From contig NZ_JAGUQP010000003.1 of NCBI RefSeq assembly GCF_018704065.1, positions 1 to 64,000 on the forward strand: 64,000 bases of DNA, in the 5' to 3' direction. Below the pieces are notes generated by a model. The model was not told the origin of the DNA. It saw only the letters and a list, made by a program, of their open reading frames with translations, and made no database searches. This document shows positions 56,712 to 57,548 of this stretch, one piece after another (position 1 is the first letter of the stretch; every line of letters starts with the position of its first letter). Both the position numbers and the translations under genes were made by a program. The stretch is from Desulfovulcanus ferrireducens (GTDB lineage: Bacteria > Desulfobacterota > Desulfovibrionia > Desulfovibrionales > Desulfonatronovibrionaceae).

Positions 56712-56746
56712 AAAAAGGCGGCTAAACCAGCCGCCTTTTTTTATTT
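56711..56746 (+). terminator. Intrinsic terminator of rpmB
   Basis: AAAAGGCGGCT and AGCCGCCTTTT pair around AAACC, followed by TTTTTTTATTTT. It begins at the rpmB stop. Confidence 0.92.
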
Positions 56747-56775: not shown

Positions 56776-56967
56776 CTATTTGTCCTTCCTGTAAAACTCG
56801 AAACACATCTCTTCTTTCCACTTATCAACCTCATCTTTATAAAATGTGAGGGGCATTTCCATTTTACACGACCTGCAAACTACCCTGGCTCCTGCTCACC
56901 GGCCAACGATCTGAACCGGCGAGTTACAAAATTTGCACTTTAATTCAGGGCCGTTAGCATCATTCAC
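56776..56967 (-). CDS. Small zinc-ribbon protein with in-frame TGA (selenoprotein candidate or broken gene)
   Basis: A 64-codon frame starts at GTG 56967, preceded at 6 nt by GGAGG. Its translation has Cys pairs CKFC (residues 11-14) and CRSC (31-34), spaced like a zinc ribbon, and ends at TAG. Codon 24 (56898-56896) is TGA. After it both halves stay in frame and continue with ordinary composition. Sixteen nt past the TGA the RNA can form UUUGCA/UGUAAA around loop GGUCG, resembling the GGUCU loop of the fdhF selenocysteine insertion element. It may be a selenoprotein, or a gene with a recent nonsense mutation. The protein function is unknown. Confidence 0.55.
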
Positions 56968-57108
56968 TTTATCCCTCCTCTTCTCTCCTAAATGCTACTA
57001 CTTAAGTGTCATCAATCTGTGAATCTTGTTGTAACTATCTATTTTGATTATCTAAGTTTGTGGCCAACTGAAAACTGCTCCCAGAGCGAAATTTGCGCAA
57101 AACATATA

Positions 57109-57339
57109 TCAATTTCTTAAGAGTTGTTTAAACTCTTCCACAGTTAATCCAACTTGTTTTATGATTTTCCGTAATGTGCCTTTTGCTATTTCTCGATGAT
57201 CCGGAACAACAATACGTCTATGAGGATACACGACTTGTCGTAGGATTATATGACTGCCTTTCTGCCTGTCTCTTTCATAACCTACCTTTGACAATGCTGA
57301 CACTACTTCTCGTCCCGATACTCTTGGAAGTATACTCAC
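57109..57339 (-). CDS. hicA: HicA-family toxin (mRNA interferase)
   Basis: The 76-residue protein has the HicA double-stranded RNA-binding-like fold signature: VSGREVVSALSKVGYERDRQKGSH with the catalytic His (near residue 30), IILRQ, and VPDHREIAKGTLRKIIKQVG. Toxins of this family cut mRNA during stress. It overlaps hicB by 4 nt and comes after it. The pair lies inside a repeat fragment (57055-57735). Confidence 0.93.
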   Translation of the reverse strand: MSILPRVSGREVVSALSKVGYERDRQKGSHIILRQVVYPHRRIVVPDHREIAKGTLRKIIKQVGLTVEEFKQLLRN

Positions 57340-57548
57340 ACTGCTACCTCTACAATTTCTTCATCAATGGATGGGGGAATAGGTTCATTGTGAGCTTTCA
57401 AACTTTCAATATATGCTTCAATTGCTTCTTGAATATTCGTTAACGCCTCAACACGTGTTTCTCCTTGAGAAATACAGCCAGGTAGAGAAGGAACCTCTGC
57501 AACAAAGATCCCATCTTCATCTTGTTCAATAATAACTCGATATTTCAT
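57336..57548 (-). CDS. hicB: HicB-family antitoxin
   Basis: The 70-residue protein has the HicB core: YRVIIEQDEDGIFVAEVPSLPGCISQG, then ALTNIQEAIEAYIE. It neutralises HicA and usually represses its own operon. It lacks a C-terminal DNA-binding domain, so it is a short form. GGAGG lies 5 nt before ATG. Confidence 0.93.
   Translation of the reverse strand: MKYRVIIEQDEDGIFVAEVPSLPGCISQGETRVEALTNIQEAIEAYIESLKAHNEPIPPSIDEEIVEVAV

Follow-up and report, generated by a model that had tools for sequence, protein, structure and literature searches.

Does an in-frame TGA in a small zinc-ribbon gene of Desulfovulcanus ferrireducens mark a broken gene, a leaky stop or a codon for selenocysteine (Sec)? 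The gene lies on the minus strand at 56776..56967 of the 64,000-nucleotide stretch of DNA analysed here (the window), and the reverse complement of these positions reads VNDANGPELKCKFCNSPVQIVGR-TGA-AGARVVCRSCKMEMPLTFYKDEVDKWKEEMCFEFYRKDK-stop, with the TAG ending at 56776. The start, supported by sequence comparison, is a GTG (56965..56967, first base 56967) closely preceded by the ribosome binding site AGGAGG (56974..56979, read from 56979 to 56974). The TGA, read from 56898 to 56896, is codon 24, follows Gly-Arg and is flanked by two CxxC knuckles, Cys11-Cys14 (56926..56937) and Cys31-Cys34 (56866..56877), both invariant in 39/39 aligned members. A sequence-only reading had described this frame, its ribosome binding site, the two CxxC pairs and the TGA, together with a 6-bp stem with a GGUCG loop 16 nt further on; every detail was confirmed, and the strand, which had been left unstated, is minus. 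From cross-genome comparison, the locus is most probably a functional selenoprotein gene of a known family, encoding a 63-residue protein whose position 24 is Sec and belonging to subfamily B (GxU) of NF041197.

In a relative of the same genus (L004) an ATG stands at the place matching the GTG of the window gene; the automatic choice of our script for that relative was an upstream TTG, not the matching ATG. The downstream neighbour is a convergent rpmB (PF00830, 89.4 bits), and the interval between the two genes holds a palindrome that resembles a terminator, GGCGGCT-AAACC-AGCCGCC, with runs of A and T beside it (56717..56735, no strand assigned). Upstream, on the same minus strand, a hicB-like antitoxin gene is followed by a hicA toxin gene, in the order hicB-hicA (57112-57548; PF15919, 46.7 bits; PF07927, 65.9 bits).

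With Sec entered as Cys, the window protein scores 42.5 bits with NF041197 (NF041197.2, CxxC_Se_CxxC, "dual CXXC motif small (seleno)protein"), for which the cut-off is 40, and shares with that family and its OS_HP3 form a small size, two CxxC pairs, Sec or Cys between them and a hairpin over the second CxxC. The family divides into two subfamilies. In a tree of 84 members a fully supported branch separates A from B (100/99, from only 52 columns). Members of A usually carry R-x-U or R-x-C and often a C-terminal tail of the C-D-R-[IL] type (C-D-R-I), are Cys proteins in many species and reach up to 88 bits with NF041197, mostly far above its cut-off. For B, a profile was built from an alignment of 39 members of the window gene's type, all of which are matched by NF041197; the eight B members whose scores were taken gave 29-46 bits, straddling the cut-off. 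The window gene scores 83.4 bits with the B profile and 33.7 bits with the A model (stop unread). It falls on the B side of the tree with the motif G-R-U, which places it outside OS_HP3 (RxU, subfamily A), and has a different C-terminal helix. In the same genome, C1:50457-50615 (locus L052, also L080) carries another selenoprotein gene with a TGA, this one of subfamily A; its product, ...HHTUQEIILYCRSC..., scores 81.8 bits with NF041197 (Sec again entered as Cys), 73.3 bits with the A model and 27.1 bits with the B profile.

A recent review lists NF041197 twice, as OS_HP3 with the motif RxU, credited to Zhang and Gladyshev 2007, and as hypothetical protein DW with the motif GxU (SMF39960.1) (PMC13188914, 2026). 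The deep-Sep study introduced the latter from Desulfosarcina and described homologues with Sec and with Cys as well as SECIS-like structures (PMC12013277, 2025); the species it comes from also has OS_HP3, entered separately (PMC13188914, PMC12013277). The window protein has the GxU motif within the dual CxxC framework, as the DW form does. Judging from this motif and the published description, subfamily B is very probably hypothetical protein DW, which resembles it in its motif, in its NCBIfam family, in having both Sec and Cys homologues and in occurring beside OS_HP3 in Desulfosarcina. B could instead be a truly undescribed selenoprotein family distinct from both NF041197 and DW, given that the tree sets it apart with full support and that several of its members score under the cut-off of NF041197 (29-39 bits). 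We regard this as unlikely, since PMC13188914 puts DW in NF041197 with GxU, which fits the motif of B and not that of A, and since DW was entered apart from the OS_HP3 of its species and has Cys homologues, like B. The suggestion of the sequence-only reading that this would be a new type of selenoprotein stands in one part only: Sec lies in neither a CxxU nor a UxxC motif, but the claim to novelty is not supported, as NF041197 (42.5 vs 40 bits) covers the window protein and PMC13188914 names an RxU and a GxU form of that family. The window gene is a new member of a catalogued, uncharacterised family of small zinc-ribbon selenoproteins from sulfate reducers that had previously been predicted computationally.

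How the TGA is used can be judged from its fate in relatives. A first search of 101 genomes (the source genome and 100 relatives) gave matches in 31, most of them interrupted by a single in-frame TGA. The B profile was then run over 395 genomes of the phylum, counting as clear relatives those with at least 49 bits; the next match, at 37 bits, belongs to the sister subfamily. Among the 52 clear B matches, 50 have the in-frame TGA, and both relatives that lack it (L087 and L101) have Cys exactly at its position, in GKC-ENSKVVC and GKC-DHSKVVC. The in-frame UGA thus aligns with UGA or Cys in every clear relative, as expected of a bacterial selenoprotein, and the earlier proposal of selenocysteine at codon 24 is strongly supported. 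The residue G22 of G22-R23-U24, the motif with a CxxC on either side, is invariant among the aligned members. Furthermore, dN/dS 3' of the TGA is 0.11-0.19 among the window gene and the two relatives closest to it, a rough value from only 35 codons. Together, the TGA in 50/52 clear relatives and the purifying selection after it indicate, at the level of sequence comparison, that the TGA in the window gene is there beyond chance and that the protein is conserved past it.

These data also bear on the idea that the UGA is a programmed or leaky stop, with a 23-residue peptide as the main product and read-through inserting, for example, Trp. UGA is the leakiest of the stop codons, and the upstream part alone would make a conserved short peptide with one CxxC. 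Against this, Cys is the sole sense codon found at the TGA position in clear relatives, and Trp never occurs there.

In the case of selenocysteine, a hairpin following the UGA would be expected to direct insertion. The candidate SECIS element (56863..56879, minus strand) starts 16 nt after the TGA and consists of the stem UUUGCA/UGUAAA (56879-56874 and 56868-56863; 6 bp with one G-U pair) and the loop GGUCG (56873-56869), so that the codons of the second CxxC knuckle lie inside it. Taken by itself, the hairpin of the window gene is too weak to prove anything: it has -3.1 kcal/mol and, compared with synonymous versions of its coding sequence, a z-score of -0.36, and a 49-nt stretch of the window gave a z-score of -0.02, with a best fold that differs from the proposed hairpin. 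We therefore relied on family-wide tests. Synonymous recoding, in which the peptide was kept fixed and codons were redrawn by G+C content, gave mean z-scores of -2.08 for 57 B genes with Sec and -1.76 for eight A genes with Sec, as compared to -0.40 for 23 A genes with Cys and -1.33 for B genes with Cys, of which there were only two in the sample. Sec and Cys genes differ in hairpin z-score with a Mann-Whitney p of 2e-7, which is not a true probability as the sequences are related. This contrast, a strong downstream hairpin where the gene has TGA and a weaker one where it has Cys, is a further argument against a leaky stop.

Covariation points the same way. Across 46 B sequences a 7-pair helix was paired in 89.1% of cells, and 38 cells had changed on both sides of the helix. 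Shuffled controls had 13.0 ± 4.3 such cells (0 of 500), and helices slid to other positions had 3-25. The compensatory changes sit in the outer pairs and in the loop-closing pair, outside the Cys codons, which answers the worry that the stem merely reflects those codons. Taken across the family, both covariation and recoding identify a SECIS element at a fixed distance from the TGA, although it is weak in the window's own copy, and from these comparisons we conclude that the family hairpin is real and maintained together with the UGA, in line with the hairpin put forward from the window alone. A covariance model of the hairpin found its sole match in the window at the site in the selenoprotein gene, with Cys-type control loci also scoring weakly; the model is too small to find A-type SECIS elements reliably.

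The sequence-only reading had likened the loop to that of E. coli fdhF. Indeed, in both elements the UGA is followed by a short stem whose apical loop is of the GGUCU type, the window's GGUCG differs from GGUCU by one base, and two members (L007 and L082) have exactly GGUCU after UGCA. The likeness does not extend to the family as a whole: CGGAG or AGGGA loops are found in many members, and a shifted 6-bp stem occurs in one lineage. The family hairpin also lies several nucleotides further from the UGA than in fdhF. The shifted stem, GGURAG-GUGY-CUYRCC, is closer to the UGA, occurs in eight B genes (L081, L083, L084, L085, L088, L094, L099 and L105) and shows a G-C/A-U compensatory exchange of its own. 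In five of these eight genomes the B gene is immediately preceded, on its own strand, by a topA-like gene.

The machinery for Sec insertion, whose presence the sequence-only reading had proposed to check, is in place: the source genome has SelA (557.6 bits), SelB (409.8 bits) and tRNA-Sec (83.1 bits). SelA was found in all 52 genomes with a clear B gene vs 356 of 395 overall. Two incomplete genomes, G105 (79% complete) and G141 (67% complete), have a subfamily A match with a TGA and no SelA match, probably because the contigs concerned are absent. With SelA in every genome that has a clear B gene, and given the Cys exchange and the hairpin, a leaky stop seems to us very improbable. Least tenable is a plain nonsense mutation, which would make the gene a small zinc-ribbon pseudogene; we give this next to no chance. 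In its favour, Cys codons form part of the stem, and the window's hairpin is no stronger than synonymous codons give. Against it, the same TGA recurs in 50/52 relatives across many families of the phylum, residues past the TGA are conserved and the stem covaries outside the Cys codons; the conserved TGA and its exchange with Cys led us to reject a nonsense mutation.

Reading codon 24 as selenocysteine, we asked what the protein might look like. An AlphaFold2 model (pLDDT 76, pTM 0.47) has strands at 17-21 and 28-31 between the knuckles and a helix at 40-62, so that a beta-hairpin joins the Cys11/14 and Cys31/34 knuckles, as in a zinc ribbon. The four Cys of the two knuckles probably bind one zinc, and with medium confidence the model places Sec at the tip of the beta-hairpin, apart from the zinc ligands. 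Comparisons with known folds returned generic relatives. Foldseek gave no match at E <= 0.001 (best ZifS, 0.096), VIA-align reached a Z of at most 3.8 with mostly generic zinc ribbons, a sequence profile against solved structures found generic zinc fingers (best E 0.009), and the window protein had no Pfam match above cut-off. A similar CxxC-beta-hairpin-CxxC layout occurs in Lar (PF14354), LysW, the N-terminal ribbon of RPB9 and ZifS, but matches to Lar and other small zinc ribbons are weak and generic; PF14354 matches 21/39 B members weakly, with a best value of 5.7e-6. We know of no Sec in Lar restriction alleviation proteins or in other small zinc ribbons.

Gene neighbourhoods were compared across the phylum, and no neighbour of the B gene is conserved throughout, which indicates a stand-alone function. 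Local associations occur; the dsr, plsX and topA names used here were given from sequence and not by profile. In seven genomes (L086, L092, L093, L096, L097, L109 and L111) the B gene adjoins convergent dsrP-, dsrO-, dsrJ- and dsrK-like genes, which would belong to the sulfite reduction membrane complex. Within the window gene's family, plsX and its neighbour gene adjoin the B gene. In two further genomes (L091 and L100) a gene for a YkgJ-like cysteine-cluster protein ends just upstream of the B gene, at about -750 to -54 from the TGA, and relatives of this gene are found near the B gene in other genomes.

The mechanism that we favour from the cross-genome comparison is that SelB and Sec-tRNA(Sec) would read the UGA at codon 24 as selenocysteine, directed by the hairpin that starts 16 nt downstream. 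The product would be a protein of 63 residues with two CxxC knuckles, a beta-hairpin presenting Sec at its tip in G-[RK]-U, according to the model, and a C-terminal helix. In such a small stand-alone protein, the exposed selenolate may react with such partners as thiols, disulfides, peroxides or reduced sulfur, while the zinc ribbon may serve as a scaffold or docking surface. For the selenol, a redox role is our best guess, one to which we give roughly even chances; a redox or nucleophilic function is what one would expect of a selenoprotein by default.

The gene is a clean case of Sec read-through which ordinary annotation would cut to 23 residues, in a family that is widespread in its phylum. 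To the earlier predictions we add the division into A and B, paralogues that occur together in one genome, the marked preference of B for Sec, and statistical support for the SECIS element, including a second hairpin register. The single NCBIfam model misses part of B, as its cut-off falls in the middle of the range of B scores. While subfamily A often has Cys, B has Sec in 50 of 52 genomes, a contrast that is worth testing and that suggests that selenium probably matters chemically in B. It is conceivable, though we would bet against it, that B is a nearly obligate-Sec protein with new chemistry, in which a single selenolate stands at the tip of a zinc-ribbon hairpin with no Cys partner nearby in sequence and outside any CxxU or UxxC motif. 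If this were true, the chemistry of B might lie, for example, in selenium- or zinc-dependent redox sensing, or in the handling of reduced sulfur in sulfate reducers.
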